A stretch of 64,000 nucleotides of DNA. It comes from Parasphingopyxis sp. CP4. GTDB lineage: Bacteria > Pseudomonadota > Alphaproteobacteria > Sphingomonadales > Sphingomonadaceae. The stretch spans positions 2,668,001 through 2,732,000 of the forward strand of contig NZ_CP051130.1 in NCBI RefSeq assembly GCF_013378055.1, given 5' to 3'. The first letter of the stretch is position 1. Each line of letters opens with the position of its first letter. Below the pieces are notes generated by a model, which saw nothing but the letters and a program-made list of their open reading frames with translations, did no database searches and was not told where the DNA came from. Shown in pieces: positions 17,306-51,988 of the stretch. The position numbers and the translations under genes were made by a program.

Positions 17306-17355
17306 TGGTTGCTTGGCCACACTATTTATATAATGATTAATTTGTCCGGACAAAT
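17306..17355 (+). promoter_or_regulatory. Promoter with palindromic operator (site A) for the TonB receptor gene
   Basis: A perfect -10 box TATAAT lies at 17329-17334, with a weak -35 TGGTTG 17 bases before it (17306-17311). The 16-bp palindrome ATTTGTCCGGACAAAT occupies 17340-17355, exactly where transcription would start. This placement suggests repression. The same palindrome recurs at seven other places in the window. The distance to the start codon is 59 bases. Confidence 0.8.
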
Positions 17356-17414
17356 CTTGAGTGGGTCGAGATATTGTCATAGTCAGATAGCGATTGGGTT
17401 TAGGGAGAAACAAA

Positions 17415-19868
17415 ATGGTCGCCACTAGCACGGGTTTTAAACTTACATTGTCAGGGGCGGCGCTTGCCGCGGCTCTCGCATCGGCTCCGGCCCATGCGCA
17501 AGCGGAAGGCGACACACCGGTCGCCGGTCAAAGCGGCCTCGGCACGATTGTGGTGACCGCGCAGCGGCGTGAGGAAAATGTCCAGGACATTCCGATCGCG
17601 ATTTCCTCCTTTTCCCCAGACGAACTCGCATCGCGCGGTATTGGAAACACGCTTGAGCTGGGTGAGTTCATTCCCAACCTGATTGCGCAGAACAATACCG
17701 GGCTTGGCGCAGCCAATGCCTACTTCCTGCGCGGTATCGGCAACACCGAGTCGATCGCTACCTTCGATCCGCCGATCGGCACCTATGTCGACCAGGTTTA
17801 TATGGCGCGTCAGAACGGCAACAATCTGAGCCTGTTCGATGTCGAGCGTGTCGAAGTGTTGCGTGGGCCTCAGGGAACCCTGTTCGGCCGCAACACGACC
17901 GGTGGTGCGATCAGCATCGTATTGCGTGAGCCGGGCGATGAGTTCGGTGGCTTTGCCGAAATCGGTTATGGCCGCTTCGATCGGATCATGGTCCGCGGCT
18001 CGATGGATATCCCGGTCAGCGACACGGCAGGTTTCAAGGTCAGCGGCTATTATCAGGACGATGATGGCTATGTGCAGAACATTACGACCGGCGAAACGTT
18101 GAACGATAATGATGGTTATGGCGCGCGCATTGCGTTCCGCCTGGCGGCCGACATTGCCGAATGGAACATCGCCTATGCGCGGATCAACAATGACGGCGAA
18201 AATATGCTGAATTTCCCGTGTCGTTCTATTGATCCAGCAACACCGGCAAGTTGCAGCACGCGTTTTGCAACAACCGGGGCATCTGAAACCAGCGCCGGCC
18301 CGGTTCCCGGTATATCGGGACGCAAGGCAAATTACGGCCTGGGCAGTCGCTCGGATATGGATTTGGTTACGTCAAACCTTGAGCTCGAGCTTGGTGATAA
18401 CCTCTCGGTTGCGTTCATCACCGGCTATCAGAGCCTGGTCCAGCAGTTCAATCTCGACTTTTTCGATGGTCGGTTCGGGCCGAACGCGGGCAATCCATTC
18501 CCAGCGGTGATCGGCTCGCCCTTCGGTGGTTTCAATATCTTCAATGATCAGGAAAACACGCAGATTACCCAGGAAGTGCGCTTCAACGGGTCATTTGGCG
18601 ATGGCTTGGTCGACTATGTGGCGGGCGGCTATTATTTCTATGAGGAAACCCGCACTGACTTTGCCGATCTGTTCGGTGCCGTCGGCTTCCCGTTCCTGCT
18701 CGCCGATCGTGTGATCGACAATGATGCGGAAGCCTTTGCGCTCTACGCACAGGCTGACGTGAACTTCACCGATGAGTTCACCTTCACCGCCGGTCTCCGC
18801 TGGACGGATGAGGAAAAGACCTTCCAGATCCGCGATAATCGCCCGGTGTGTAATGGCGACCAGGCGGCTCCCGGCTGTCTCAGTAACTTCAACCTGGTCG
18901 CGACTAACGGCGCAACGATTCCCGATGAGCAATCGGTGAGCATCTTCACCCCGCGTTTTGCGTTGAGCTATGAACCAAATGACGATCTGTTGTTCTTCAT
19001 CTCGGCGACCCGCGGGTTCAAGTCGGGCGGCTGGAATGCTCGCGGTACGTCAGGCTCGGAACTGTTGCCTTTCGGTCCGGAGACGACCTGGAGCTATGAA
19101 GCGGGCGTTCGCAGTGAGTTTTGGGACAATATGGCTCGCCTGAACGTGACGGCCTACTATGCCGATACGAGCGGATTGCAGACGCCGTCTGCCTTTGTCC
19201 GCGGAAATGGCACAATCGCCTTCATCACGCGTAACTTTGCCGATTATGAGAATTACGGCATCGAAGCGGAACTGACGCTGGCACCAGCGGATGGACTCAA
19301 CATCTTTGCAAGCCTTGGTTGGCAGGACGATCAGTATAGTATTGATCGCAACGCGCCGGCTGTCGATCAGTTCGGTGTGAGCTCGGTGGCGTCCCAGCAA
19401 GCGACGTGTCTTGCGGCACTGGCAGGTGGCATGACCTCGCCAGCATGCGGCGCCGGTATCGTCACACCGGACGGAAGCATTGCCGATCCAGTGCGTACAC
19501 CGGACTGGTCCATTGCCGGCGGCATCAGCTATGAAATGCCGCTGGGTGACAATTGGACACTGACACCAACGGTGAATGCGGCCTTCCGCTCATCCTATGA
19601 ATCCGGCACCAGCAATGTGACGATTTACCAATCAGGTCCGGGCATGTTCAACACGACGGGCAACGGCCAATATGTGATTGGTTCGTATAATGACGGCTAT
19701 GTTGTGGTGAATGCCGGAATTACGCTGGCCGAAGTTGAAGAGGGACTGCAAGTTTCGCTGACTTGCACCAATTGCTTCAGCGAAGATTATAACTCCTCAA
19801 CCCTGGCCAATACGACTTACTACAATGCGCCAGGTACTTGGATGGTTCGGGCCCGCTACGACTTCTAG
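17415..19868 (+). CDS. TonB-dependent receptor (817 aa)
   Basis: An outer-membrane importer. Its signal peptide (LTLSGAALAAALASAPAHAQA) is followed by a TonB-box-like stretch and the plug domain at residues ~45-165 (GTIVVTAQRREENVQDIPIA, YFLRGIGNT, VEVLRGPQGTLFGRNTTGGA), then a 22-strand barrel ending in WMVRARYDF. ATG 17415 has AGGGAG upstream; a TTG seven codons earlier is rejected. Such plugs are typical of sphingomonad receptors for aromatic or lipophilic compounds rather than siderophores, but the ligand cannot be read. Site A overlies its promoter and a strong terminator follows it, so it is a single-gene unit. Confidence 0.96.
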   Translation: MVATSTGFKLTLSGAALAAALASAPAHAQAEGDTPVAGQSGLGTIVVTAQRREENVQDIPIAISSFSPDELASRGIGNTLELGEFIPNLIAQNNTGLGAANAYFLRGIGNTESIATFDPPIGTYVDQVYMARQNGNNLSLFDVERVEVLRGPQGTLFGRNTTGGAISIVLREPGDEFGGFAEIGYGRFDRIMVRGSMDIPVSDTAGFKVSGYYQDDDGYVQNITTGETLNDNDGYGARIAFRLAADIAEWNIAYARINNDGENMLNFPCRSIDPATPASCSTRFATTGASETSAGPVPGISGRKANYGLGSRSDMDLVTSNLELELGDNLSVAFITGYQSLVQQFNLDFFDGRFGPNAGNPFPAVIGSPFGGFNIFNDQENTQITQEVRFNGSFGDGLVDYVAGGYYFYEETRTDFADLFGAVGFPFLLADRVIDNDAEAFALYAQADVNFTDEFTFTAGLRWTDEEKTFQIRDNRPVCNGDQAAPGCLSNFNLVATNGATIPDEQSVSIFTPRFALSYEPNDDLLFFISATRGFKSGGWNARGTSGSELLPFGPETTWSYEAGVRSEFWDNMARLNVTAYYADTSGLQTPSAFVRGNGTIAFITRNFADYENYGIEAELTLAPADGLNIFASLGWQDDQYSIDRNAPAVDQFGVSSVASQQATCLAALAGGMTSPACGAGIVTPDGSIADPVRTPDWSIAGGISYEMPLGDNWTLTPTVNAAFRSSYESGTSNVTIYQSGPGMFNTTGNGQYVIGSYNDGYVVVNAGITLAEVEEGLQVSLTCTNCFSEDYNSSTLANTTYYNAPGTWMVRARYDF

Positions 19869-19898
19869 GTCCGTTTCCTTCGGGGAGCGAATTATATT

Positions 19899-19950
19899 GA
19901 AGGGATGGCAGCGCCGTTTTCCCGTGGCGCGGCTGTCCCTTCTCTTATGT
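19899..19950 (+). terminator. Rho-independent-like terminator after the TonB receptor gene
   Basis: A long hairpin (17 positions, one mismatch and two G-T pairs) forms between GAAGGGATGGCAGCGCC at 19899-19915 and its counterpart at 19926-19942, with a ten-base loop. It is followed by TCTTAT, a modest T-run. It separates the receptor gene from the next operator-controlled unit. Confidence 0.75.
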
Positions 19951-19995
19951 CGGTTCCCTATGTGAGCCCGCTGTGTCTGGGTTTCTGGGCATAAG

Positions 19996-20011
19996 AGTTG
20001 TCCGGACAAAT
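19996..20011 (+). promoter_or_regulatory. Palindromic operator, site B
   Basis: AGTTGTCCGGACAAAT matches the recurrent 16-bp palindrome except for one base (G at 19997). The inner 12 bases are perfectly symmetric. It lies 49 bases before the amine oxidase start. A TTG inside the palindrome opens a false in-frame extension of that gene. Confidence 0.8.
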
Positions 20012-20060
20012 TTCTGCGGCTATCCTCTCCCATACGCAATCAGGCAGTGGGAGCAAAGCC

Positions 20061-21473
20061 ATGGTTGGATTATCGCGACGGGGTTTTCTGAAAGCCAGCG
20101 GAGCCACCGCGCTGCTGCTTAACACATCGCATGCACGAGCGAATGAAGCTGCCGATGTGATAGTCCTTGGCGCCGGTCTCGCGGGTCTTCATGCCGCGCT
20201 GCAGCTGGCTGATGCGGGTGCATCTGTGATCGTGCTTGAGGCCAAGGAGCGTGCTGGTGGTCGGGTGCAAACCTTGTTCGATCTGCCAGGCATTCCCGAA
20301 GCCGGCGGCACCCAATTGAGCTCCAACTATCGCCGGTTTGTGGGTTTGGCCGAGCGGTTTGAGATTCCGTTGATGGAAGATTCCCCAATGCAGCGGGATG
20401 GCGCGCCCGAGTTATATGTCGCCATGCGCGGCCAGTCCGTATTGCCGGATCAATGGGCCGGTCACCCGCTCAATCCCTTTGATGGCCCGCTTGCCAACTT
20501 GCCGCCATGGGCCCTGCCATTTGCGGCAATGGGCCGCGATAATCCGCTGCCCGAAATCGCCAGCTGGCGCGATCCCGACTTTGCCGAATGGGATAAGCCC
20601 GTCTCCGAACATCTTGGCTGGACGAGCGAACAGCTACGTCTCGGTTTCGGGATCAATCCTGGATATGGTGCCTCGGCCTATAGCCAGTCGACGTTGATGT
20701 GGTTTCAGATCATGAAAGCTATTGCCGCGCCCGGCGGTCGGCTCCTGACGGTAGATGGCGGCAATCAGAGAGTTCCCAATGCGATGGCTGCAGCGTTGGG
20801 AGACAGGGTGCGTTACGGCAGGGCCGCTCGCCATATCGAGAGCGATGCGGACGGTGTCGTTGTGAGGACAATGGACGGATCCACCTATCGCGGGCGCGAT
20901 TGCGTGATCACTCTACCAACGAGTGCGTTGCGAACGGTTGATATCGACCCGGCCCCGCCGCGATTGCAGCAGCGCGGCATTCGCAGTTTACCGTATAATC
21001 GGGTTGTACGTGCCTATTTCGTGCCGGAGCGGCGTTATTGGGAGGAGGATGGCCTACCGCCCTCGATCTGGAGTGACAGCTATGCCGGCCGAATCTTCGC
21101 GCTGCGGGGTGGCGGCGGAACGGAAATCACGATGATGCAAAGCTTCATCACGGGTCGCGCGGCCGAACTTCTGGATCGCATGCCGCAATCCGATGCTATG
21201 GCGCTGATCCAGGCCGAAATTGAACACGTACGGCCGGCAGCGCGCGGAGCATTGCGACCCGTTGCCTATGTCAGCTGGGGCAATGATCCTTATGCCGGTG
21301 GTGCCTATGCCTGTTGGGCTCCCGGTCAGATTAGCGCTTTCGCCGATGCCGTGTCGCAGCCGCATGGCCGACTGACCTTTGCAGGCGAGCATACTGCCGT
21401 CCGCGCGCGGGGTATTGAGGGCGCACTTGAATCTGCCGAACGCGCGGTGCGGGAGGTATCGGCACGCAATTAG
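20061..21473 (+). CDS. Flavin monoamine oxidase family protein with Tat signal
   Basis: This 470-residue FAD enzyme starts at ATG 20061 after GGGAG. The N-terminus carries a twin-arginine signal (SRRGFLKASGATALLL), so the folded flavoprotein should be exported to the periplasm. After it come the FAD dinucleotide motif VIVLGAGLAGLHAALQLADAG, GGRV, and the C-terminal FAD motif LTFAGEHTAVRARGIEGALESA. The family oxidises primary or secondary amines, or amino-acid-like substrates, to imines/aldehydes with H2O2. It is followed after 28 bases by a Tat-exported esterase gene and controlled by site B. Confidence 0.94.
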   Translation: MVGLSRRGFLKASGATALLLNTSHARANEAADVIVLGAGLAGLHAALQLADAGASVIVLEAKERAGGRVQTLFDLPGIPEAGGTQLSSNYRRFVGLAERFEIPLMEDSPMQRDGAPELYVAMRGQSVLPDQWAGHPLNPFDGPLANLPPWALPFAAMGRDNPLPEIASWRDPDFAEWDKPVSEHLGWTSEQLRLGFGINPGYGASAYSQSTLMWFQIMKAIAAPGGRLLTVDGGNQRVPNAMAAALGDRVRYGRAARHIESDADGVVVRTMDGSTYRGRDCVITLPTSALRTVDIDPAPPRLQQRGIRSLPYNRVVRAYFVPERRYWEEDGLPPSIWSDSYAGRIFALRGGGGTEITMMQSFITGRAAELLDRMPQSDAMALIQAEIEHVRPAARGALRPVAYVSWGNDPYAGGAYACWAPGQISAFADAVSQPHGRLTFAGEHTAVRARGIEGALESAERAVREVSARN

Positions 21474-21501
21474 GAGCAGCTGAGAACGAGGGGCAGCACA
21501 G

Positions 21502-22368
21502 ATGTCCATGCATGATCGATTATCACTCTCGCGTCGTAAGGTGCTTGGTGCAGCGGCCGCTACATCCGCGCTGGGTATTTCGGTACAAGCGCTTGGGCAG
21601 GATCAGGTCGCGAGCGCAAGAGAGCCGCGGACGACATTTCTGTTGGTCCATGGCGCTTGGCACGGCGGGTGGTGTTGGCGCGACGTCCGCGCCGTTCTTG
21701 AGGGTGCGGGCCACCGGGTTATTACACCCACATTGTCCGGGCTTGGCGAACGGGCGCATCTCATGTCGCCGGAAATCGGTCTGGCGACCCATATCGAAGA
21801 TATCCTCGCGGTGATCCGGTTCGAGGATTTGTCGAATTTTGTGCTGGTCGGCCATAGCTATGGCGGCATGGTGATCACCGGTGTTGTCGATGCCATGCGC
21901 GATCGCATTTCGCATATCGTCTATCTCGACGCTGCGCGGCCGACGCACGGTCAATCGATGATCACGCAGGGGCCGGACCGGCCCGTCGCCGTGATCGAGC
22001 AAACCGAAGCGGCGCTGCGCAGGCTGGCGCCTGACGGGGCCGCAATGAACGCGTTCCCGCCAGAGCTGTTGGGAATTCCGGCTGATCACCCCAGCTATGG
22101 CTGGGTCGCAGAACGGCTGACACCTCATCCGCTCAAGACCTGGCTCGACCCCATCGCGCTCGAAAATGGAGGATCGGACGGGTTGGCGCGTAGCTATATT
22201 CACTGCACCGATCCGGTTCTGCCAAATAGCAGCTTTCCGTGGCATGCCGCGGAAACCGAAGCGGATCCAACCTGGCACTATCGGGCACTCGCGACTGGGC
22301 ATGATGCGATGATCACCGCACCACGAGAAACGGCGGCACTCCTTTTGGAGGCCGCCGTAACTGCGTGA
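21502..22368 (+). CDS. Alpha/beta hydrolase, salicylate-esterase/MES-like, Tat-exported
   Basis: This 288-residue protein begins with a Tat signal (SRRKVLGAAAATSALGISVQA). It has the oxyanion region LLVHGAWHGGWCWRDV, the nucleophile elbow GHSYGG, and a C-terminal GHDAMITAPRE with the catalytic His. This layout is that of plant methylesterase/hydroxynitrile-lyase-like enzymes and bacterial salicylate esterases. Its natural ester is unknown. It is co-transcribed with the amine oxidase, so both probably act in the periplasm on a compound entering through the nearby TonB receptors. Confidence 0.93.
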   Translation: MSMHDRLSLSRRKVLGAAAATSALGISVQALGQDQVASAREPRTTFLLVHGAWHGGWCWRDVRAVLEGAGHRVITPTLSGLGERAHLMSPEIGLATHIEDILAVIRFEDLSNFVLVGHSYGGMVITGVVDAMRDRISHIVYLDAARPTHGQSMITQGPDRPVAVIEQTEAALRRLAPDGAAMNAFPPELLGIPADHPSYGWVAERLTPHPLKTWLDPIALENGGSDGLARSYIHCTDPVLPNSSFPWHAAETEADPTWHYRALATGHDAMITAPRETAALLLEAAVTA

Positions 22369-22387: not shown

Positions 22388-24871
22388 TTAGAAGCCGGCG
22401 CTTACCGCAACACCGAAGTGACGGCTGCGGCGCAGCGAACCAACAAAGCTCCGACGGAAGCTGTTATCGGCATCTGCATAGCGCAGAACCAGCGGTGAGC
22501 TGTCTTCGTTCGTCAGGTTGTTGACGTAGAAGTGGACCCGATAATTGTCGTTCTGAACGCCGATCCGGGCATTCACCAATGTCGTGTCTCCATTGTTGAT
22601 CAGGTTATGCACCTGAGAGAAGACGCGGCTGCGATGGCTGATATTCGCACCAGCGAAGAATTCCCAACCGCCGCTGCCAATGTCCGTACGATAATCAATA
22701 TCGGCAAACATCGTGTGGCGTGAGGTACGCGGAATCTGCCGTCCGGCAATCGATCCGAAGAGCGCGTTGCCCGAGCCGCAAGGCTGGGTGATGAACTGCA
22801 ATCCCGTCGAGCAATTGTTCAGACCATCATCGCGGATATCGTTGAGCAGACCTTCATTCTGATCAAACCCGCTCGTGAATTCCGGATCAAGCAACGTATA
22901 GTTGGCCGTGAAGGTCCAGTTCGGGTTCGGACGAACCTGCGCTTCAATTTCAAAGCCCATGATCCGCGCATCACCGGCATTGGTGATGGCCGAGACCGTA
23001 TTGTTGGCCGCCTGTACATTCTGGGTCAGCTGATAACCGTCTATCTCGTTCAAGAAGGCGGCAAAGTTCAGCGTGAGATCACCGAACTGGTTCTTTGAAC
23101 CGATTTCATACGAAACAGCATCTTCCTGCTCATAGGTTGGAACACCAGCGGCAATGGCGGTGATGCCATTGAAACCGCCCGGCTTCGTACCCGTGGCGAA
23201 CACGGCGTAGAAGAGATTGTCCGGCGTCATCTGATAGCTCAGGGTGATCCGCGGATCGAAGCTGTCAAAAGTAGCCCGCGCCATGGACTGATTAAGGATC
23301 GGTCCGCCTTCATCCTGTTCTACGGCGCTGAAGTTGATCCGCTCAGACGCGTAGCGACCTTCGACCGTCAGCTCGAGATTGTCGGTGATGTCGATGCCGA
23401 CCGAACCGAAAATGGCGAGGTTGCGGATATCGGTTTCCGTCATGTCCCGTGAGTTGGGGGTCGACGGACCAAAGAACGGAACAATGCTCCCGCAGATTGG
23501 ATTTGCCGCACATAGAGCAAGCTGTTGTCCAAAGGCTGCGCCGAAACTGGCTCCAGCCTGAGCACCGGCATTGGCCGGGACCTGGCGAACATCCTGCGTG
23601 TCTTCGCTCTGATCGAAATAATAACCACCAAGCAGGAAGCGGAAGCCATCGCCTTCATAAGCGAGCCGCAATTCCTGGCTGATATCTGTCGTATCGGTCA
23701 GGCCTTCAAAGCTGAAGTCCACCGTTGCCCCGACATAGCCATATTGGAATGGGGGGAAGGGGAAGCCCGCAAACGGGAAACCACCGGGCGTGAAGACTGC
23801 TGTCTGGAATGCGCCCGCTGCGTAATCGGCATCCGAACGGAACAATGTGTCGCGATCGTTAAAGCCGGTGAGCGATGTCAGAGTCATCTCTTCGCTCAGA
23901 TCGATTTCGATCCGGGCCGAGAGATTGAGCGTATCGATAAAGGTGCCTGCCCGATTGCCGGCAGCAAATTGGATGCTCGGATCCGCGGTGATCACGCCGG
24001 GTTGCAGCGTGCCGCAGAAATAGCGGCCTGCACCGCCATAGAGCGTACCATTATCGAAGATGCAGTTATTCTGGGTGGCATCTTGCGAGAAGAGTGCGGC
24101 CTGGCCGTCATCGACTTCCGAATAATAGCCACGCAGGCGCACCCGTACCGGGCTGCCGGTCGGCTCATAGGCAATGACGCCGGAGAAGGTGAGCGATTCT
24201 TCCTGGCCGAAGGTGACGCCGGTGACCGGATTGCGATGCTCGCCGCCGAAATCATACCAGCGGACCTGCGCCCCAGCGGTCAGGCCGTCGGCAAGGCCGC
24301 CTTCGATGTTTGCGGTCAGCTCATAGCGATCATCTTCGGACGCATCGAAGCTGATACGGCCGCCGAACTCATCGCTCGGCGAGCGGGTGACGATGTTGAT
24401 CGCCCCCGAATAGGTGTTGCGTCCATAGAGCGCTGATTGCGGGCCTTTGACGACTTCGAGCCGTTCGATATCGTCGACATTATAGTCGGAGATCGAACCG
24501 GTGATGTAGATGCCGTCGATAAAGGTCGCGACGCCGGAATCGCCAAGGATATTGGCTTGGCCGCGAATGACCGGACGGTTGGAATCGCGCCCGAACTCGT
24601 TGTCGAAGCTCAGACCGGCCGTCGTATTGGCGATGTCGGTCAGATCCTGCAGGTTGAGCTGCTCGATCGTCTCCGCTGTCGCCACAGCAACCGAAACCGG
24701 CGCGTTCTGCAGCGCTTCATTGCGCCGCCGTGCAGTCACGATGATCGGCGCATTGCCGGAGGACGAAGCGAGTGCGTCGCCGCTTGTCTGCGCGCTGGCC
24801 GCGCCCGGCAAAGCGATTGCGGCAATGCCGGCCGTTGTGGCCAGCAAAAAACCCTTGTTACGTGAAATCAT
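22388..24871 (-). CDS. TonB-dependent receptor (827 aa)
   Basis: An outer-membrane importer with a signal peptide (FLLATTAGIAAIALPGAASAQ), a plug at about residues 40-165 (PIIVTARRRNEALQNAPVSV, VIRGQANILGDSGVATFIDG, LEVVKGPQSALYGRNTYSGA) and a barrel ending in SRHFGVAVSAGF. It is only distantly similar to the receptor at 17415. Transcription starts from a well-formed promoter overlapped by site C. It is convergent with the esterase gene. The ligand is unknown. Confidence 0.96.
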   Translation of the reverse strand: MISRNKGFLLATTAGIAAIALPGAASAQTSGDALASSSGNAPIIVTARRRNEALQNAPVSVAVATAETIEQLNLQDLTDIANTTAGLSFDNEFGRDSNRPVIRGQANILGDSGVATFIDGIYITGSISDYNVDDIERLEVVKGPQSALYGRNTYSGAINIVTRSPSDEFGGRISFDASEDDRYELTANIEGGLADGLTAGAQVRWYDFGGEHRNPVTGVTFGQEESLTFSGVIAYEPTGSPVRVRLRGYYSEVDDGQAALFSQDATQNNCIFDNGTLYGGAGRYFCGTLQPGVITADPSIQFAAGNRAGTFIDTLNLSARIEIDLSEEMTLTSLTGFNDRDTLFRSDADYAAGAFQTAVFTPGGFPFAGFPFPPFQYGYVGATVDFSFEGLTDTTDISQELRLAYEGDGFRFLLGGYYFDQSEDTQDVRQVPANAGAQAGASFGAAFGQQLALCAANPICGSIVPFFGPSTPNSRDMTETDIRNLAIFGSVGIDITDNLELTVEGRYASERINFSAVEQDEGGPILNQSMARATFDSFDPRITLSYQMTPDNLFYAVFATGTKPGGFNGITAIAAGVPTYEQEDAVSYEIGSKNQFGDLTLNFAAFLNEIDGYQLTQNVQAANNTVSAITNAGDARIMGFEIEAQVRPNPNWTFTANYTLLDPEFTSGFDQNEGLLNDIRDDGLNNCSTGLQFITQPCGSGNALFGSIAGRQIPRTSRHTMFADIDYRTDIGSGGWEFFAGANISHRSRVFSQVHNLINNGDTTLVNARIGVQNDNYRVHFYVNNLTNEDSSPLVLRYADADNSFRRSFVGSLRRSRHFGVAVSAGF

Positions 24872-24905: not shown

Positions 24906-24916
24906 AAGTCTACAGT

Positions 24917-24961
24917 AAATTTGTCCAGACAAATTTTAATTTTGATACAGTGAAATCTCAA
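24917..24961 (-). promoter_or_regulatory. Promoter with palindromic operator (site C) for the second TonB receptor gene
   Basis: Read on the minus strand, -35 TTGAGA (24956-24961) and -10 TAAAAT (24933-24938) are separated by exactly 17 bases. The operator at 24917-24936 (plus strand AAATTTGTCCAGACAAATTT) is symmetric over 20 bases except at the centre. It overlaps the -10 and the start point, as expected for a repressor site. The distance to the ATG is 45 bases. Confidence 0.85.
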
Positions 24962-29376: not shown

Positions 29377-29398
29377 GGGAGTCTTTCCGCTCAAGAAA

Positions 29399-29488: not shown

Positions 29489-29508
29489 ATTCATTGTAAT
29501 GCCGTGCA

Positions 29509-32300: not shown

Positions 32301-32345
32301 CTTTTCTTTCTGCGCACTATACGCCGGAGGAGAAAAGGAGACGAG

Positions 32346-42268: not shown

Positions 42269-42282
42269 ATGCGCACCTGCGG

Positions 42283-43008: not shown

Positions 43009-43068
43009 GACGACTCCCTTATTTGGTCGTTTTTGACCATGCCCGTGCATTTTGGACTTGCCAAGTGA

Positions 43069-43086
43069 AATTTGTCCGGACAAATT
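43069..43086. promoter_or_regulatory. Palindromic operator, site E
   Basis: AATTTGTCCGGACAAATT is a perfect 18-bp palindrome between divergent genes, 60 bases from the leftward start (43008) and 24 bases from the rightward start (43111). A weak rightward promoter (TTGCCA at 43058-43063, 17 bases, CAAATT) would place the operator in its spacer. Confidence 0.85.
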
Positions 43087-44537: not shown

Positions 44538-44896
44538 TAACTGTCGCGTAGCTCGTCCACGACATCCTGTACAGGTGGTTCAAAGTCCTCAAGCGCTTGC
44601 AGCGCCTGGTGCGGGCCGCGCATGACGCGCGCGATATATTCGCGGATCAGTTCGCCGCGTTCCTGCCCAGCCTCGCGATCGGGCTCATAGGCTTCGATAT
44701 CGGCGCGGCTGATCGTGCCGTTCGCATCCAATAGCCGCTCGACCGTATCGAGCCGCTCGCGCAGCACGGATACTTCGCCGATCACCGCCATCAGCATGGA
44801 GAGCATTTTCTCTTCTTCGGCATCGCCGAGGAAATCGGGGCGTTTGCCCTTGGCCTTGAGATTGGCCCGGGTCATCCAGTCCATGTCTTCGGTCAT
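44537..44896 (-). CDS. Small partner protein of methyltransferase (2)
   Basis: This 119-residue helical protein (MTEDMDWMTRANLKAKGK, MLSMLMAVIGEVSVLRERLD, TVERLLDANG, LIREYIARVMRGPHQALQ) has a likely coiled coil at residues ~30-65. I start it at ATG 44896, overlapping the methyltransferase stop (ATGA). The open frame to 44950 is rejected. It corresponds to the small gene at 39450, which shares the same coupling and helix pattern. Unknown family, probable enzyme subunit. Confidence 0.82.
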   Translation of the reverse strand: MTEDMDWMTRANLKAKGKRPDFLGDAEEEKMLSMLMAVIGEVSVLRERLDTVERLLDANGTISRADIEAYEPDREAGQERGELIREYIARVMRGPHQALQALEDFEPPVQDVVDELRDS

Positions 44897-46116
44897 TCTG
44901 CGGCCTCCTGCATGGCTTCGGCATTTTTCCAGGCGCCATAGGCATTCCACACCGCAGCGCGGCCATGATCTTCGACCTCGCCGGTCGGCGCTTCGGGGAA
45001 GATATCGCTATCCACGACGGCGCGGACGCCAATCGTGAACAGTTCGTCCCGGTCAAAGCCAGCCGTCTCCATCACGGCCTTGAGATCAAGCGCATGCATC
45101 GCAGACCAGAAGGGCTCGTTGTTGTTGAACGCATCCCAATCGCGGATAAATTGCTCATAAAGCGGCATATCATCGGAATATTGCGGCTGTTCGACATGCA
45201 TCATCAGCCCGTCATCGGCGAGAACGCGATAGCCTTCCGTGATGATCCTGGGCAGCGCCTTGCCGCTCAACTCGTGCAGGAACATGGTTGTCTGCACCCA
45301 ATCGAAATGGCCATCCTCCCAGCGCGAAAGATCTTCGGCATTGGCCTGGATGAAGCGGATATTGGTGACGCCGAGCGCCTGGGCGCGGGCATGGCCATAG
45401 CGCAAGGATGGCGCGGCTGTATCGATCGCAATCACTTCGGCATCGGGATAGGCGAGCGCAATCGGCAGCGCGTTGTGGCCGATGGTCGATCCGATATCGA
45501 GGATCCGTTTCGGCTGCCAGCCGGGCCGTTCCTTTTGCGCCCATTCGGCCACTGCCTGGCCGCCGCCATCGCTGAGCGAGCCGAGTGCACCGCCGGTCGT
45601 GGCAAAGAGACCGCAATCATAATTGGCACCGGCCGAAACATCGCCGGGGCGTTCTTCGCCATGATAGCTGCCGGGCATGCAGTGAATATCGACCGCTGCC
45701 TGATAGCGCGGCACTTCGATTTCCGGATGGAGTTCGAGCGTATCCTTGTCCGCGTTGAGCTCATCGGCCTTGGCGTCGAGTGCGTCGAGCTGACGCAGCA
45801 CCATCGCCCGGCCATTTTGCTGGCGCATCTCCATCGAATTGCGTTTCAGTGCGGACCAGAAGCTGTGAAACGGATCGGCGTTCATCGCGTGGCGAATCTC
45901 GAACCGGTCCTTGGGCTCGCGGCCATGCTCCTTTACAAAGGCGGGCAGCACCCGCTTGTCATAGGCAAGCTTGTTGCCCGGGCCGAGCGATCCGGCAAGG
46001 AACTTGTTGAGATTTGCCAGAAAATCGAACCGAGCGGCTTCATCATGTTTCGGCTCGGGAAACATGGCGTGCCGGGCAACGGCGGTATAGGGCGGGGCGA
46101 CGTCGATCTTGCTCAT
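44893..46116 (-). CDS. Class I SAM-dependent methyltransferase (2) with N-terminal extension
   Basis: This 407-residue paralogue of the methyltransferase at 38266 has an N-terminal helical region, the shared EIEVPRYQAAVDIHCMPGSY segment, and the catalytic core (PKRILDIGSTIGHNALPIAL, VIAIDTAAP, HFDWVQTTMFLHELSG, LADDGLMMHVEQP). It is the first gene of a three-gene operon driven by a promoter with operator site F. The length is much greater than that of a minimal methyltransferase (~250). The substrate is unknown. Confidence 0.93.
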   Translation of the reverse strand: MSKIDVAPPYTAVARHAMFPEPKHDEAARFDFLANLNKFLAGSLGPGNKLAYDKRVLPAFVKEHGREPKDRFEIRHAMNADPFHSFWSALKRNSMEMRQQNGRAMVLRQLDALDAKADELNADKDTLELHPEIEVPRYQAAVDIHCMPGSYHGEERPGDVSAGANYDCGLFATTGGALGSLSDGGGQAVAEWAQKERPGWQPKRILDIGSTIGHNALPIALAYPDAEVIAIDTAAPSLRYGHARAQALGVTNIRFIQANAEDLSRWEDGHFDWVQTTMFLHELSGKALPRIITEGYRVLADDGLMMHVEQPQYSDDMPLYEQFIRDWDAFNNNEPFWSAMHALDLKAVMETAGFDRDELFTIGVRAVVDSDIFPEAPTGEVEDHGRAAVWNAYGAWKNAEAMQEAAE

Positions 46117-46157: not shown

Positions 46158-46185
46158 AGTATAATTAGTCCGGACAAATTTCCAA
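46158..46185 (-). promoter_or_regulatory. Promoter with palindromic operator (site F) for the methyltransferase (2) operon
   Basis: On the minus strand -35 TTGGAA (46180-46185) and -10 TATACT (46158-46163) are 16 bases apart. The operator AATTAGTCCGGACAAATT (46163-46180, one mismatch at 46167) fills this spacer almost exactly, so bound regulator would block RNA polymerase. The start codon is 46 bases downstream. Confidence 0.85.
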
Positions 46186-46193: not shown

Positions 46194-47339
46194 CTAGATC
46201 AAGCCGGCTGCGATCATCCTTTCAATCACTGCTTCCTGGGTCCGCCGGAAGTAATCCCGGTCCGGAACCTGCGGGGTATCGCCGTCCATCATGCCGTTCG
46301 CAGCATGGATTTCCGTGCCACCATAAATGGGCGCAAACAGCTCCAGGCGCTGGCGGGCGAGGAAGTTGGTCATGCTCGGCGTGCGCCGACCTTCGCGCAG
46401 CGCTTCGATATCGACAGTGGCGAAGGCGGTGAAGGTTTCGCCGGAATTGGATTCGGCCACCACCCGGCCCTTCCAGTCCACCACCTGCGAATTGCCATCG
46501 GCCGAGGCAAGCGGCAGCGAGCTGCCTTCGATGCCCGCGGTATTGGCGGACACAACATAGGCCATATTTTCGAAAGCCCGCGCCTGTTTGGCGATGTCCT
46601 TGGGCGTATCGAGCGGTGACCCGATTTCCGAGGAGCTATGCACAAAGACTTCCGCACCGCGCAAGGCATGGGCGCGGGCGATTTCAGGATAGAGGATTTC
46701 TTCCGAGGCCACCGCTGCGAGATTGCCGATCTCGGTCCGTGCCACCGGGAACACGCCGTCCAGGCCATAGATATCGAGATAGCGCGACCAGACATCATGC
46801 GGGGTGGGCGCGAACATCGAATTCAACCGGCGATAGCGCAGCACGACCTCGCCCGAGGGCGCGATCACAAAGCTGGTCTGAAAGTAGAAATCCGGGAAAT
46901 GATCATCGGCTTCATAGGCATTGCCGGCGATGAACATGTTGAGCCGCTCGGCAACACCGCCCAGCGCTTCATATTCCGGCCCGCCAATTTCCAGCGCCGC
47001 CTTGTCGGCAAAATCGGGGATCGAGATCCGGCCCGGATAGCTGGTCAGCACATATTCGGGGAGCACGGCGAGCCGCACCGGATGGCCGCCATATTGCTCG
47101 ATAAAGATGCTGGCCGAGCGCAATTTGGTTTCGATTTCGCCGATCATCGCCATCATCTGCGCGCGTGCCGTCTCGCGATCGGGCGCTGCCTCGACCGAGC
47201 GGGCAGCGAGCTGCAGGCCGAGGGCGGAGTAAAGCGGTGTATCAGCCATGCTGTCTTCCTGCGCCATAAGGCCGGCATTGGGCAAGGGCAGCATGCTCGC
47301 GAGCATCGCTGCCATGATCTGCCGCCGGTCCAAATACAT
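46194..47339 (-). CDS. Nitrilase superfamily protein with altered catalytic triad, Tat-like signal
   Basis: This ~381-residue carbon-nitrogen hydrolase fold has the Glu in AVLPEYVLTSYPG. The region that normally supplies the catalytic Lys reads VLRYRRLNSMF, and the normal Cys loop reads AAVASEEILYPE. The Glu-Lys-Cys triad therefore appears as Glu-Arg-Ser. The N-terminus (MYLDRRQIMAAML) looks like a Tat signal. I chose ATG 47339 over TTG 47345. The Cys change implies loss of ordinary nitrilase chemistry or use of serine. It is the last gene of the DUF1838-MFS-flavin oxidase operon. Confidence 0.88.
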   Translation of the reverse strand: MYLDRRQIMAAMLASMLPLPNAGLMAQEDSMADTPLYSALGLQLAARSVEAAPDRETARAQMMAMIGEIETKLRSASIFIEQYGGHPVRLAVLPEYVLTSYPGRISIPDFADKAALEIGGPEYEALGGVAERLNMFIAGNAYEADDHFPDFYFQTSFVIAPSGEVVLRYRRLNSMFAPTPHDVWSRYLDIYGLDGVFPVARTEIGNLAAVASEEILYPEIARAHALRGAEVFVHSSSEIGSPLDTPKDIAKQARAFENMAYVVSANTAGIEGSSLPLASADGNSQVVDWKGRVVAESNSGETFTAFATVDIEALREGRRTPSMTNFLARQRLELFAPIYGGTEIHAANGMMDGDTPQVPDRDYFRRTQEAVIERMIAAGLI

Positions 47340-47345
47340 GCTCAA

Positions 47346-48905
47346 TCATTCCAGTCCGAGCGATCCCGGGTTCATCAAACCACGCGGATCGACCTGCTTT
47401 TTCACCGCGAGCAGCAGCGCTTCGGCCGCCGGATCCAGGCTGTCCCGATAGCGATAGGTGCGGCCGATCTGGAAATGCACCGCGCCATGGTCATGGAACA
47501 GATCGACCAGCGCGGCCTTGAGTGCCTTGGCGAGCTCCCAGGCCTCCGGATTCTCATCGAGCACCGGCAGCTTCGCGAAATGATCGGCGTCCATCGTATA
47601 TTCGTGCGCCGGGTTCGACGCGTCGGGCCAGTAAAGGCACGGCTCGATCAGCGTCCCGGCTCCGCCCACCGCGGCAATCAGCGTCCCGGTAAAAATGCCA
47701 AGCCGTTCCATCTCCGCGCTATGCGTTTCGAACAAGGCTTCGATCGCGGCATAACAGGCCTGCGCCCGGGAATGCGGGACCAGGCCATGGACCGGGGCCC
47801 AGCGTTCGCCGCCCGGACCAAGCACGGAGTTAAGCGGACCAAAGGGATTGGCGCGGATGATCTTGGGAATCGTGTTTTCGGTCTCGCGGCCACCATGCTC
47901 GACAGCCAGGGCGGTCGCCTGTTCGATATCGGCGTCGGCGGCCGACTGGATGCGGCCCTCGCTCAATATATGGAGCGAGAATTTTGCATCCTTCAGGAAG
48001 TTCCGGCCGGCGGTCACCACCTTGGCGCCCTCTTTCAGCGCTTTCAGCACGCTGCCCTGCTTCTTCATCATATTGCCCAGCGCTTTGACATCGGATGTCA
48101 TGCTGTCGCGCTGCATGCGGATCGCATTGAGATTGGGATCGAACCCAAAACATTCGGTCGCAACGCCCGCCCGCTCGATCGCCGCCATCGCGCCGAGGAC
48201 ACCTTCGCGCGTGTCGAAGATGAAGCTCGCATAGCCATGGGCTTCGGCATCGCGCACCAGCCGCAAGGTGATCGCTGCCTTCATGCCGAGCGCGCCGGTA
48301 TCGGCGAGGAACAGCCCTGTCAGGTCGGGGCCATAGGGCCGCGAAAAATCGCTGCCGGTACGCATGATTGTGCCATCGGCCAACACGACCTCCAACGCGA
48401 CACAGCTTTGGACAGCCGTGCCATAGCGGCCCGAGCCCCAGAAAACGCCGTTCTGGCTCATCCCGCCGCCAACCGTCGCTTTCAGTCCGGATAGAGTGCC
48501 CCAAAATGCGGTGCGCAAGCCTTGCGGTTGCAGGGCCTCATGCAGTGCCGCCCAGGTGCAACCGGGTTCGACGGTAACCGTCATATCCTCGGCATTGATC
48601 TCGAGGATCCGGTCCATCTTTTTGAGATCACACAGCACTGCGCCGCTTTGGGTCGGCGTATAGCCGCCGGTATAGCTCATGCCGCCGCCGCGCGGGATGA
48701 CGGCTATATCGCGCGATGTTGCGGCTGCAACGGCGGCGGCCAGCTGGTCCTTATTGTTTGGCACCACAACGGCCAGCAGATCCGCGCCGCGCGCGTACAG
48801 ATCATGCGCATGGAATTCGAGGCTTTCGGCATCGCTGAGAATCTGCGCCCCGCTTGCCGCCAAATCGGCAAGCACTCCACTGTCATTGTCTGCCAGGCTA
48901 GCCAT
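47346..48905 (-). CDS. FAD-binding oxidase, vanillyl-alcohol oxidase/GlcD-like
   Basis: This 519-residue flavoenzyme has a PCMH-type FAD domain at about 40-235 (VIPRGGGMSYTGGYTPTQSGAVLCDL, TVEPGCTWAALHEAL, GLKATVGGGMSQNGVFWGSG) and a C-terminal FAD-oxidase cap. Relatives include 4-cresol dehydrogenase, eugenol/vanillyl-alcohol oxidase and D-lactate dehydrogenase. Its ATG overlaps the MFS stop (TGATG). It probably oxidises a hydroxy acid or para-alkyl phenol from the imported compound. Confidence 0.93.
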   Translation of the reverse strand: MASLADNDSGVLADLAASGAQILSDAESLEFHAHDLYARGADLLAVVVPNNKDQLAAAVAAATSRDIAVIPRGGGMSYTGGYTPTQSGAVLCDLKKMDRILEINAEDMTVTVEPGCTWAALHEALQPQGLRTAFWGTLSGLKATVGGGMSQNGVFWGSGRYGTAVQSCVALEVVLADGTIMRTGSDFSRPYGPDLTGLFLADTGALGMKAAITLRLVRDAEAHGYASFIFDTREGVLGAMAAIERAGVATECFGFDPNLNAIRMQRDSMTSDVKALGNMMKKQGSVLKALKEGAKVVTAGRNFLKDAKFSLHILSEGRIQSAADADIEQATALAVEHGGRETENTIPKIIRANPFGPLNSVLGPGGERWAPVHGLVPHSRAQACYAAIEALFETHSAEMERLGIFTGTLIAAVGGAGTLIEPCLYWPDASNPAHEYTMDADHFAKLPVLDENPEAWELAKALKAALVDLFHDHGAVHFQIGRTYRYRDSLDPAAEALLLAVKKQVDPRGLMNPGSLGLE

Positions 48906-50200
48906 CAGGCGAGCGCCTCCTGCGCATTTTCGGGCTCGGGTTCTGGAAATTCTGTCGGGTATCGTCCGAGCAAGAGCAGTAATCCACCACCGACAACAAA
49001 GCCTCCGATCGCAACCGTCAAAATCGGATCGAAGCTTCCCGTGCGATCAAACACCTGGGCGTATATCAGCGGCGACGAAGCCGAGAACAGACCGAACGGC
49101 ATATAGAGCATGCCATATATCTTGCCATAATGCGCCATCCCGAAATAGCGTCCGGTGAGATAGGCGATCAGGTCGCTTTCGGCGCCAGCGGCAAAGCCGA
49201 GCAGGAAACCGGCAGCTGCGGCCAGCGGGAATGTGATATTTTCACCGAGCAAGATCCAGGCTGAAATGGCCGGCAGGCAGAGCAGCGGGAAGGCCACAAA
49301 ACCTTGCCAGAAGCGATCGAGCAGCGCGCCTGTAATCAGCCGTCCGGCAAAGATGCCAATGCCAAGTATCCCCATGACCGTTGCCTGGGTCTGCGTATCG
49401 ATATCACGCAAACCGAGCATGCGCGGCATATTGATAAAAGCACCGCCGAACGATGTGGCAATCAGCGCGATCGACAGCCAGATGATCCAGAACCGATAGT
49501 CTCTGAGTGCCATGCCGAGGGTCACACCGGTCAACTTTCCGGTTGCGCTCTCAATGGCCTTGGGTCGTTCATCGGGTCGCGGTTCGCGGAACAAGAAGAA
49601 ACTAATGATCAGCGCGGCTATCGGAAACGCTCCCATGATTAAGAACATTTCTCGCCAGCCGAAATTCGTGATCGCCCAGACCGCGACCTGCGGCACGACC
49701 ATAGCGGCTAGGCTAGTTCCCATCAGCAAGATTCCGAGCGCTAGCCCGCGATGCTTGAAGAACCACAGATTGATTGCGCGGCTCCAGGTCACCGGCGTCG
49801 ATCCGATGCCTACGAAGCCGACAACAACCCAAAAGCCGTAATAGATATAGAGCGTTGACGGGTCGTTTGCGGTTGGCGTCAGCGATATCGCCGCAAAGGC
49901 GAGGGCAAAGGCGAATAGTGACCAAAGGGCCACCGGACGCACACCGAACCGATCTGCCATGGCGCCGAACACAGGCGCCAGGAAGGATGCAATCACTCCG
50001 AAAATCGTAATCGGTAACACCGCCTGCGTCTGGCTCCAGCCGAACTCGGCCGCCAATGGCGCGGCGGTGAAGCCGATGATATTATAGGGAATAGGCGAGG
50101 CGCCGCAGGCAACGCCGAGAACCCCCGCGAGCAAAGTCTTCCAGCCGAGGCTGAATTCATTCCGTTCGCTGTCGCTCTCGGCCCCTGCGGCGCTAGCCAT
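48905..50200 (-). CDS. MFS transporter, oxalate/formate or monocarboxylate-like
   Basis: This 431-residue protein has 12 transmembrane helices (first WKTLLAGVLGVACGASPIPYNIIG) and the MFS loop GAMADRFGVRPVALWS between helices 2 and 3. A cytoplasmic loop rich in charged residues lies near the middle, and it is similar to MFS carriers of organic acids. Its ATG overlaps the DUF1838 stop (TAATG). It most likely imports a pathway intermediate across the inner membrane. Confidence 0.93.
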   Translation of the reverse strand: MASAAGAESDSERNEFSLGWKTLLAGVLGVACGASPIPYNIIGFTAAPLAAEFGWSQTQAVLPITIFGVIASFLAPVFGAMADRFGVRPVALWSLFAFALAFAAISLTPTANDPSTLYIYYGFWVVVGFVGIGSTPVTWSRAINLWFFKHRGLALGILLMGTSLAAMVVPQVAVWAITNFGWREMFLIMGAFPIAALIISFFLFREPRPDERPKAIESATGKLTGVTLGMALRDYRFWIIWLSIALIATSFGGAFINMPRMLGLRDIDTQTQATVMGILGIGIFAGRLITGALLDRFWQGFVAFPLLCLPAISAWILLGENITFPLAAAAGFLLGFAAGAESDLIAYLTGRYFGMAHYGKIYGMLYMPFGLFSASSPLIYAQVFDRTGSFDPILTVAIGGFVVGGGLLLLLGRYPTEFPEPEPENAQEALA

Positions 50201-51132
50201 TATTCGCTATGTCCGGCTGCCGGGGAGTCTTCGCCTTCGGCCGCGCGCATTTCGTCGATCATCTGGCGGAAGACCGTCCAGGTGGTCGCATTGGGTCGCG
50301 CATCGTCACCCGGAGGCGGTGCGGTATATTCCGGATAGTTCGCCTCGATCTCATTGCGCAGCACTTCAGGCAGTTCGTCATAACCGCCGCGCAGTTTGGA
50401 ACCGACCGCGTTGAAGATCATCTGGCCTTCGCGGCTGCGCATCCGCATCCAGGGAAGCCAGGCTGCTACACGAACCCAACTTACCGTCGGATAGGCGGTC
50501 GCATTGTCTGTATCGAGAATATCGTCAGCGCGTGCGGCGAAATCGAAAATCTCCATCGCCTGATACATGTTGCCGACATATTCTTGATAATCGCCGCCCA
50601 GCGGGTTGGTGTAGAACAGCGGGACTTCGAACGGGATCAGCACCCAATCGCCAATCTGGCGATAGGTGGAAATCGAATAGGGCGATCCATCACGTCCCAC
50701 CGGAAAATTCGGGGCGCGCATGTTCACCGGATCATTGGCAACATGCATTACGGGTACGGTTTCACCGGTCCAGGGATTCTCCCATTCGCGGAGCACTTCG
50801 CCGGTTTCCGGATCGGTATAGAGCATGATTTCACGGCTGACCTGGCGATAACCGGTGCCGCGCTCTGGATCCGTAACGCTAACGCATTGGCGGATATTCA
50901 TGCCTTCAAGGTTGAAAACGTGCCGGTCGCGTTCACCGCGAACCCGTGAATAGCCGCGGCCCGACCAGTAATAGACGGCTGGCTCGCCATCGGCTTCACC
51001 ACATTGCAGACGCTTGGATATTTCTACCGCGTCTTCCGGGACATTGGGATCGAGCGTGCGCGCTTCGGCAGCCATTCCCATTCCTGCAAGCGCCATTGTC
51101 GCGCATGCCAGTGTCAATTTCTTCAAACCCAT
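50200..51132 (-). CDS. DUF1838 family secreted protein
   Basis: This 310-residue protein has a signal peptide (LTLACATMALAGMGMAAEAR). The mature part has the DUF1838 hallmarks GYSRVRGERDRHVFNLEGMNIRQC, PVMHVANDPVN and LFYTNPLGGDYQEYVGNMYQAMEIFDF. The family is beta-rich, often found next to catabolic genes, and without known function. It is the first gene of the operon with the MFS carrier, flavin oxidase and nitrilase-like protein, and faces operator site G (43 bases upstream). Confidence 0.88.
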   Translation of the reverse strand: MGLKKLTLACATMALAGMGMAAEARTLDPNVPEDAVEISKRLQCGEADGEPAVYYWSGRGYSRVRGERDRHVFNLEGMNIRQCVSVTDPERGTGYRQVSREIMLYTDPETGEVLREWENPWTGETVPVMHVANDPVNMRAPNFPVGRDGSPYSISTYRQIGDWVLIPFEVPLFYTNPLGGDYQEYVGNMYQAMEIFDFAARADDILDTDNATAYPTVSWVRVAAWLPWMRMRSREGQMIFNAVGSKLRGGYDELPEVLRNEIEANYPEYTAPPPGDDARPNATTWTVFRQMIDEMRAAEGEDSPAAGHSE

Positions 51133-51175
51133 TGAACCTCTCCCCTAGTCAAATTCTGTCCTGTAAGCCGTGCAT

Positions 51176-51193
51176 AATTTGTCCGGACAAATT
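51176..51193. promoter_or_regulatory. Palindromic operator, site G
   Basis: AATTTGTCCGGACAAATT is perfect over 18 bp, between divergent genes (43 bases to 51132, 49 bases to 51243). On the minus strand a consensus -35, TTGACA (51201-51206), lies just upstream, so the palindrome would sit in the spacer and -10 of the leftward promoter, as at site H. Confidence 0.85.
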
Positions 51194-51242
51194 TTGACTT
51201 TGTCAATGGCCCGAGTCATAGCGGAGTGCAAGGGGAGTTTCT

Positions 51243-51926
51243 ATGTCGCTCGATACTTTGGCGTATCCAACGCTTGTTTACATCCATCTGCTGCTTTTCG
51301 TCTTGTGGCTTGGCGCGGATGTTGGTGTTTTTCTGCTCGGACAGCATTTTCGCAAACGCGAAAACTATACGCTGGAGCAGCGACTCGCGCTCCTCAAGAT
51401 GCTCGTCATTGTCGATATGACCCCGCGCAGCGCATGGGCGCTAATGGTACCGATCTCATTGTCTGTGCTCGCTGCAGGTAACTGGTGGGCAGTGCCGGGA
51501 TGGTTGCTGATTGCCAGCTGGGTGGTTGGAGCCTTCTGGCTCTGGCTGGTCTGGGATGCGCATAATCATGATCAGACGCCGCGCGCGGCGCGCGACCGGG
51601 CGATTGAAAACTGGCTCAAATACGGCCTGACGGCTTTCTATCTCTGGCTCGGTATCCAGTCGCTGGTGACGGGCGCACCGCTCGATCAGTCTTGGATTGC
51701 CTGGAAAGCGGTGCTGTTCGGCGCCATCTTCGCAGCCGCGATCATGATCGATGTCGCCTTCAAGCCGGTCGGAGCCCAGCTCGGCAAGCTGCTTGAAGAA
51801 GGATCCAGCGACGAGACCGAGCTGCCGCTGCGCGCAACCATGGATCGCACCCGCATATGGGTCTGGATCGTTTATCTGCTGCTGATCGCGACATCCTATC
51901 TGGGCGTGGTAAAGCCGGTTTTCTAA
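51243..51926 (+). CDS. Integral membrane protein (2), paralogue of the protein at 43111
   Basis: This 227-residue protein has six or seven transmembrane helices. It starts YIHLLLFVLWLGADVGVFLL and ends YLLLIATSYLGVVKPVF. It shares the helix-1 H...WLG...GVF motif and the GxVKPxF tail with the protein at 43111, though overall similarity is low. ATG 51243 follows AAGGGGAG. It is a single-gene unit under site G. Its function is unknown, but having one such protein beside each of two operators suggests a membrane role in the pathway. Confidence 0.85.
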   Translation: MSLDTLAYPTLVYIHLLLFVLWLGADVGVFLLGQHFRKRENYTLEQRLALLKMLVIVDMTPRSAWALMVPISLSVLAAGNWWAVPGWLLIASWVVGAFWLWLVWDAHNHDQTPRAARDRAIENWLKYGLTAFYLWLGIQSLVTGAPLDQSWIAWKAVLFGAIFAAAIMIDVAFKPVGAQLGKLLEEGSSDETELPLRATMDRTRIWVWIVYLLLIATSYLGVVKPVF

Positions 51927-51957
51927 GCAAATAGTTTCGTAATGCGTCAATCGGCGC

Positions 51958-51988
51958 TTGACTTTAAATTTGTCCGGACAAATTGTAC
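51958..51988 (+). promoter_or_regulatory. Palindromic operator, site H, with -35 element
   Basis: TTGACT (51958-51963) is a good -35 box. The perfect palindrome AATTTGTCCGGACAAATT at 51967-51984 begins three bases later and would fill the spacer. The -10 (around TTGTAC, 51983-51988) is weak, which suits a regulated promoter. It is 39 bases before the CitE-like gene. Confidence 0.8.

Follow-up and report, generated by a model that had tools for sequence, protein, structure and literature searches.

The window analysed here, 64 kb of DNA from Parasphingopyxis sp. CP4 (bases 2668001-2732000 of a single 2,963,413-base contig), contains repeated copies of one palindrome, AATTTGTCCGGACAAATT. This palindrome is very probably the operator of a GntR/UTRA regulator encoded in the same window (56835-57572, minus strand), which would repress one catabolic regulon until an inducer binds. 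We computed the sites, their confinement to one part of the genome, how they are retained upstream of the same genes, and their co-occurrence with the regulator. An earlier note on this DNA had claimed that the palindrome defines a catabolic regulon, and the confinement, conservation and co-occurrence of the sites support that claim. The cluster is a real regulon of a known kind, and we infer from its sequence that it would be one large gene cluster for breaking down a compound in marine bacteria, with the palindrome marking its on/off switches.

Distribution of the palindrome in the genome

The search for AATTTGTCCGGACAAATT at up to 3 mismatches returned 8 matches in the window, compared with a mean of 0.00 in 100 dinucleotide shuffles. 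These were the eight copies already listed in the earlier note, whose coordinates were right to within one base. The copies at 32270, 43069, 51176 and 51967 had 0 mismatches and were thus perfect over 18 bp, those at 17339, 24918 and 46163 had 1 mismatch each, and the copy at 19995 had 2. The copy at 17339 was perfect over its inner 16 bp, which together with the four full copies gives the five that had been described as perfect over 16-18 bp. In the whole 2.96-Mb genome we detected 9 sites at up to 3 mismatches, all inside one 54-kb stretch, and 0 matches to the reversed control pattern. The ninth site, which was not on the original list, was found 7.2 kb beyond the window end (G000:C1:2739234, 1 mismatch). 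By hand arithmetic, the chance of nine random places sharing a 54-kb stretch is of the order of 1e-13. A motif scattered over the genome had been set beforehand as an outcome that would speak against the regulon; all 9 of the 9 copies were located inside the cluster. A site profile was also built from 127 sites of other genomes, picked at up to 2 mismatches. Over 84 kb the nine sites scored 27.5-36.5 bits, a degenerate copy at 32284 scored 15.8 bits and the next best place −2.2 bits, values that are partly circular because the training sites were picked for likeness to the consensus.

The operators were named A to H along the window. Operator A (AATTTGTCCGGACAAATC; 17339..17356; 33.3 bits) was found 58 nt before the gene of TonB receptor 1, and operator B (GAGTTGTCCGGACAAATT; 19995..20012; 30.0 bits), the least conserved, before the genes of a flavin amine oxidase and an alpha/beta hydrolase. 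Operator C (AATTTGTCCAGACAAATT; 24918..24935) precedes TonB receptor 2, while operator F (AATTAGTCCGGACAAATT; 46163..46180) precedes the genes of methyltransferase MT2, orf137 and an SDR protein. The other four are perfect. Operator D (32270..32287) lies between the ABH2-leuCD-HMGL-CoAT1 genes on the minus strand and IsoCh-PDA1-PDA2-ALDH-VOC-DUF1330-MT1 on the plus strand, operator E (43069..43086) between DUF3108-FAD monooxygenase (minus) and the membrane protein gene TM1 (plus), and operator G (51176..51193) between DUF1838-MFS-FAD oxidase-CN hydrolase (minus) and the membrane protein gene TM2 (plus). Finally, operator H (51967..51984) directly follows TTGACTTTA in the putative promoter of citE-MaoC-ACAD-CoAT2-CoAT3. 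The distance from site to start codon was 5-58 nt for ten targets; operator B, outside that list, was read by eye as lying 48 nt upstream of the ATG at 20061. Both agree with the 5-60 bases proposed earlier.

The candidate regulator

The likely reader of the operator is the HutC-type GntR/UTRA protein of 245 residues encoded at 56835-57572 on the minus strand (Pfam GntR 2.4e-20, UTRA 3e-17). It comprises a GntR winged-helix domain at the N-terminus (PF00392, 72.4 bits, cut-off 27) and a UTRA domain at the C-terminus (PF07702, 63.2 bits, cut-off 23.8). It was the only protein of the genome with a UTRA match and it co-occurs with the site, and the GntR protein that the earlier note had named is therefore the best candidate. 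The best NCBIfam match of the regulator was TIGR02018 (HutC), at 92.2 bits against a cut-off of 220, and its best solved relatives were the YvoA/NagR chains 2wv0 and 4u0v.

In the NagR contacts described in PMC4333415, Arg38 pairs with the G at −5 and Arg48 with the G at −4, and Gly69 of the wing enters the minor groove. Among the aligned regulators, the position of Arg48 was always Arg and that of Gly69 always Gly, while the position of Arg38 varied: the close group had S, T, A or G there, L092 had N, and L093, a distant one, had Q. The sites carried T at −5 and G at −4 (0.99 each, partly due to how the sites were chosen). The G at −4 and the matching helix-3 arginine, a predicted contact, agree in sequence with the HutC subfamily, and the whole pattern fits a HutC-type protein whose specificity may have shifted at one base.

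Co-occurrence of site and regulator in other genomes

The exact 14-mer TTTGTCCGGACAAA was present in 33 of 396 genomes of the order, 27 of which had at least two copies, and the reversed control was present in 6 (hand count). The regulator, at an E-value of 1e-40 or better, was detected in 39 of the 396. Both were found in 29 genomes, from separate scans with the overlap counted by hand (hypergeometric P 2.7e-31, kinship ignored). At the same cut-off, the regulator was found only in the own genome among 385 genomes spread over the class. A scan of named genomes gave seven regulator loci, including a Parasphingopyxis metagenome-assembled genome (MAG; 95% identity), Erythrobacter ani and Altererythrobacter lutimaris (57-61%) and a Kiloniellales MAG (30%). 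A stop codon reported in the Erythrobacter ani regulator falls at residue 237 of 238 translated and is the natural end.

Within the own genus, 3 of 10 genomes carried the regulator, with 9, 8 and 8 sites at up to 2 mismatches, and one of the other seven had a single match. Because the regulator was missing from 7 of the 10 own-genus genomes (some of them incomplete) while the site was present in 18 of the 84 genera sampled, the data suggest that the regulon is an accessory catabolic trait. In one genome (G105) the regulon was split: the IsoCh/ABH2 part was located about 414 kb from the regulator and kept a perfect site, which fits action in trans. In another (G387), a dehydrogenase-like frame (named by eye) about 1.5 Mb away from the cluster has a perfect site 232 nt upstream.

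Conservation of the sites before the same genes

We fetched the regions of 33 of the 39 regulator-bearing genomes, the own one included (G014, G121, G155, G238, G354 and G385 were left out), counted sites at up to 2 mismatches and mapped the window genes only. These regions contained 136 sites, of which 1 was inside a mapped gene and 20 were without a mapped gene start within 200 bases. A site preceded the citE-like gene in 28/28, DUF1838 in 22/22 and TonB2 in 12/12 of the genomes in which the gene was mapped. It also preceded ABH2 (21/22), IsoCh (21/23), TM2 (21/27), TonB1 (15/18), TM1 (6/12), MT2 (7/20), DUF3108 (6/28), MFS (3/28) and amine oxidase (2/12), the lower counts being explained in part by differences in gene order. 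The gene order was reshuffled between genera, and the sites stayed with their promoters. The absence of the site from orthologous regions, also named beforehand as an adverse outcome, was thus not what we found at the most constant targets, although amine oxidase, DUF3108 and MT2 kept it much less often. The regulator gene itself was preceded by a site in 2 of 29 genomes, and PrpD1 in 1 of 24.

Single sites were also compared in two congeners, G776 and G780. At sites 17339 (A), 24918 (C) and 46163 (F) both keep the unusual letters, A and F with identical letters, and those of 19995 are not kept: the place of operator B had no match at up to 4 mismatches in G776 and one with 3 mismatches in G780. 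We also observed paired operators with a constant start-to-start spacing, 39-40 bp at citE/DUF1838 and 42-43 bp at TM2/TonB1 (e.g. in G232, G391, G197 and G380).

Promoter context and proposed mode of action

In the citE promoter, TTGACTTTA directly preceded the operator in 23 of 28 genomes (hand count), and TTGAC was present within 14 nt upstream in 27 of 28. In the ABH2 promoter, TTG[A/T]C was found in 19 of 21 genomes. In the window, operator C shares 3 bases with the −10 of the best promoter-like match found in 17200-25100, the spacer of the promoter-like match TTGGAA-16-TATACT is taken up by operator F, operator E begins about 8 bases after another promoter-like match, and operator A has a TATAAT just upstream (by eye only). 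The earlier proposal that the operator overlies a promoter at A, C and F is consistent with the placement of C and F, and at A with the reading by eye.

The degenerate tandem copy at 32284..32301 (4 mismatches, 15.8 bits) contains the −35-like element CTTGTCGAG of the ABH2 promoter on the minus strand. In the relatives, the part kept almost everywhere was CTTGTCGAG read leftwards, in the TTG[A/T]C form counted above, and the whole degenerate palindrome at up to 4 mismatches was found in 4 of 21 genomes (own, G319, G355 and G387), plus G780. The copy reported near 32285 does exist, and it is at least partly a −35-like element: CTTGTCGAG resembles the −35 box of a promoter reading leftwards. Taking the copy simply as a second operator was set aside, since nothing beyond the CTTGTCGAG part is conspicuous in 17 of 21 relatives. 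It may still act as a weak second operator in some genera, given the fuller copy in the own genome, G319, G355, G387 and G780.

The mechanism we propose would run as follows. A dimer of the HutC-type regulator encoded at 56835-57572(−) would bind the two half-sites TTGTCC/GGACAA of the palindrome, and at operators near promoters, 5-58 nt before start codons, the bound dimer would keep RNA polymerase off. A pathway compound would then bind the UTRA domain and release the regulator, and the release would switch on about eleven transcription units of the window as one regulon. Its predicted content includes two TonB receptors, a transporter, hydrolases of the amide and imide type, flavoenzymes and, for branched dicarboxylic acids, two CoA-dependent routes.

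Exceptions and alternative explanations

Several observations weigh against the proposed operator and its mode of action. The P of 2.7e-31 takes no account of kinship, the profile scores share the circularity mentioned above, and the regulator gene is not itself preceded by a site here. Ten genomes had the regulator without the exact 14-mer; six of these ten were fetched, five of which have nearby sites with 1-3 mismatches and one (G293) none. Conversely, four genomes had the 14-mer and no regulator at the cut-off (G002, G003, G023 and G019). G002, from another family, has a regulator about 33-34% identical that narrowly missed the cut-off (4.9e-40) and has a near-identical recognition helix; a site with 2 mismatches lies about 85-90 nt before it, further sites precede LeuC- and DUF3108-like genes, and DUF1838- and PrpD-like genes are neighbours. 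The site before the G002 regulator looks like autoregulation, in a protein whose effector domain has diverged. The site-only genomes were also considered as chance matches, a view rejected in part, as G002 combines a diverged regulator with sites before cluster-type genes. In G003 and G023, from another family of the order, a thiolase-like gene (named by eye) is preceded by the palindrome at 85 and 113 nt, with regulator relatives of 31-32% identity. In G019 the match covered the DNA-binding part only and the site lay inside long reading frames, which is probably chance. G105 has two more exact 14-mers, both within long reading frames and without a cluster gene next to them, and these look like chance too.

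The promoter data are adverse as well. TTG[A/T]C before the proximal site was uncommon at DUF1838 (2/12), TonB1 (6/13) and TonB2 (2/7), and it was present in none of 26 TM2, 21 IsoCh, 9 MT2, 6 TM1 and 5 DUF3108 promoters. Promoter-like matches were no commoner than in shuffles (5 vs 4.4; 4 vs 5.0), which also tempers the placement of C and F. For these two reasons repression has weaker support than binding. The repressor reading of the earlier note draws on operator position, which fits it at citE, ABH2, C and F. As the −35-like element is uncommon outside the citE and ABH2 promoters, we regard the operator and its repressive role together as very probable and not as certain.

It is unlikely that the GntR protein, bound to the site, activates transcription, whether or not it also represses. 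The title of one paper calls the GntR/HutC protein NagR of B. thuringiensis pleiotropic and dual, and most targets are without a −35-like TTGAC beside the site; against this, a −35-like element precedes the site at citE and ABH2, operator C covers part of a −10-like hexamer, a spacer is occupied by operator F, and a distance of 5-58 nt to the start codon is typical of repression. It also seems very doubtful that another regulator of the cluster reads the operator while GntR merely travels along. The window does encode three others, namely LysR at 16286, TetR at 39791 and an Lrp-like protein, named by its sequence, at 26163. However, in the 33 fetched genomes LysR was mapped in 4, Lrp in 4 and TetR in 1, in regions whose choice around GntR favours GntR, and in the order-wide searches, made for the site and for GntR, 29 of the 33 site-bearing genomes, found without using GntR, have GntR. 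The palindrome is even and has GTC/GAC arms, as suits a HutC-type dimer, whereas LysR sites usually have the T-N11-A form.

The remaining alternative, that the palindrome has multiplied by copying as a repeat element (mobile or structural DNA) with no regulatory role, starts from the many near-identical copies in one region. We consider it extremely improbable: the flanks of the own-genome copies differ, only 1 of 136 copies was inside a mapped gene, the copies stay at orthologous promoters across genera despite the reshuffled gene order, and congeners keep the unusual letters of individual sites. The reading of the palindrome as the operator of the GntR/UTRA regulator places about thirty genes, several of them of unknown function (DUF1838, two membrane proteins and a Pfam-less family beside the ninth site), under a single switch, which makes a single substrate probable. 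Through the regulator and the 18-mer that substrate can be approached directly, and the sites and regulators across the order make a usable case for the HutC-type specificity code.

Genes of the predicted regulon

Operons were grouped by orientation and spacing. The predicted targets on the plus strand include TonB-dependent receptor 1 (17415..19868), the flavin amine oxidase with the alpha/beta hydrolase ABH1 (20058..22368), the membrane protein TM1 without a Pfam family (43111..43803) and the membrane protein TM2 (51243..51926; DUF2269 at 25.6 bits, below the cut-off of 28). Two large plus-strand groups encode an isochorismatase-fold amidohydrolase (IsoCh), two PuuE-like hydrolases of the polysaccharide deacetylase family (PDA1, PDA2), an aldehyde dehydrogenase, a VOC protein, a DUF1330/cupin protein and methyltransferase MT1 (32346..39453), and a CitE/RipC-like lyase, a MaoC/RipB-like hydratase, an acyl-CoA dehydrogenase and CoA transferases 2 and 3 (52024..56826). 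On the minus strand, we identified TonB-dependent receptor 2 (22388..24871); ABH2 with LeuC-like, LeuD-like and HMG-CoA-lyase-like proteins and class III CoA transferase 1 (26661..32264); the FAD monooxygenase with a weakly DUF3108-like protein (41114..43053; 25.6 bits, cut-off 26); methyltransferase MT2, orf137 and SDR (43812..46116); and DUF1838, an MFS transporter, a FAD-linked oxidase and a carbon-nitrogen hydrolase (46194..51132). The earlier tally of two TonB receptors, six catabolic operons and two membrane proteins stands for the receptors and the small membrane proteins; by orientation, the catabolic operons number at least seven. For DUF1838, the fold gave no clue: the model was of low confidence (predicted local distance difference test 60) and the TM-score was below 0.4 in all of the 50 matches listed.

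A further plus-strand group, of two MmgE/PrpD proteins, a PaaK-like CoA ligase and an amidase (57611..62827), adjoins the regulator but is not preceded by a site here. This PrpD-PrpD-CoA ligase-amidase group, followed by a third PuuE-like gene (L037:29-895), was mostly found beside the regulator, and the site was rare there. As a site preceded PrpD1 in so few genomes (1/24), this part may be constitutive or differently controlled.

Predicted pathway and relation to known systems

Among NCBIfam models, the CitE-like protein was nearest to RipC (231 bits, cut-off 375) and the MaoC-like protein to RipB (242 bits, cut-off 340). PrpD2 was nearest to cis-aconitate decarboxylase and IDS-epimerase chains. 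LeuC and LeuD passed the subfamily cut-offs for isopropylmalate dehydratase subunits, and HMGL that for hydroxymethylglutaryl-CoA lyase. IsoCh was nearest to an N-carbamoylsarcosine amidohydrolase chain and PDA1 to PuuE allantoinase, with PDA1 and PDA2 matching TIGR03212 at 106.6 and 121 bits (cut-off 424.6); a carbon-nitrogen hydrolase and an amidase are also encoded. In these family scans an equivalog cut-off was passed only by the LeuD equivalog-domain match, which denotes a broad enzyme class, and no match named a substrate. The enzyme families suggest a route in which amide, imide or ureide bonds are hydrolysed and branched unsaturated dicarboxylic acids are then cut in CoA-dependent steps, and for that reason the substrate may be a compound with amide or imide groups that is degraded to branched acids resembling itaconate.

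A bolder and quite improbable extension is a whole undescribed sphingomonad pathway for a nitrogen-bearing ring compound, e.g. maleimide-type fragments from the breakup of chlorophyll, heme or bilin. TonB receptors and exported oxidases would import and open it, imide opening and ammonia removal would fall to PuuE-like and isochorismatase-fold enzymes, and the alkyl-maleates so formed would be cut to central metabolites by LeuCD/HMGL and RipBC-like enzymes. A literature search at the level of titles found nothing naming the pathway of the regulon; DUF1838 came up there only in connection with a Streptomyces cluster, and methylvinylmaleimide only with fossil heme.

The regulator shares the GntR winged helix, the UTRA domain and the G at −4 with its matching arginine with the GntR/HutC repressors NagR/YvoA, DasR and HutC. 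It differs from them in that no amino-sugar or histidine gene was recognised among the targets here. NagR has Arg38 with G at −5, in contrast to the T at −5 and the S/T/A/G/N at the Arg38 position in our set, which sets the system apart from NagR/DasR. The operator centre is CG, compared with TA in the dre site. HutC proper (TIGR02018) is the best NCBIfam match, but the score is 92.2 against 220 bits and no hut gene was recognised among the targets scanned, so the protein falls outside it. As in itaconate degradation (RipABC / Ict-Ich-Ccl), there are CitE- and MaoC-like proteins matching RipC and RipB; unlike in the Rip pathway, the matches stay below the RipB/RipC cut-offs, two CoA transferases and an acyl-CoA dehydrogenase are in the operon, and several C-N hydrolases are in the regulon. 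Similarly, PDA1 and PDA2 match PuuE and IsoCh is near N-carbamoylsarcosine amidohydrolase, as in routes with PuuE allantoinase and N-carbamoyl amidohydrolase, but the TIGR03212 scores are below cut-off and no other ureide gene was recognised by the family scans.

Published regulon reconstructions for Proteobacteria include HutC in Sphingomonadales (PMC5343134), and the GntR-family regulators in one part of its table are BioR, FadR, GlcC, HutC, HypR, LldR, NagQ and PdhR, with other pathways. The operator 12-mer was found in the literature only in a Drosophila context (title level). HutC-type repressors with palindromic sites are familiar; this regulon and its substrate look undescribed within the literature searched, as does the site, which the earlier note had likewise not recognised.

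Genes beside the ninth operator

The ninth operator, 7 kb past the window end, is flanked by two divergent genes (L037:6398-7201 and L037:7294-8064), whose products appear secreted from their starts, as read by eye. A bilin-lyase (CpcT-like) identity for the gene beside this site, a likeness seen by eye, was dropped: a profile of 10 relatives matched nothing relevant in PDB sequences, and Pfam and NCBIfam gave no usable match. Neither product had a Pfam family at E 1, and relatives of the L037:6398-7201 product were present in 29 of the 41 genomes searched; the two are possibly new protein families tied to the regulon.

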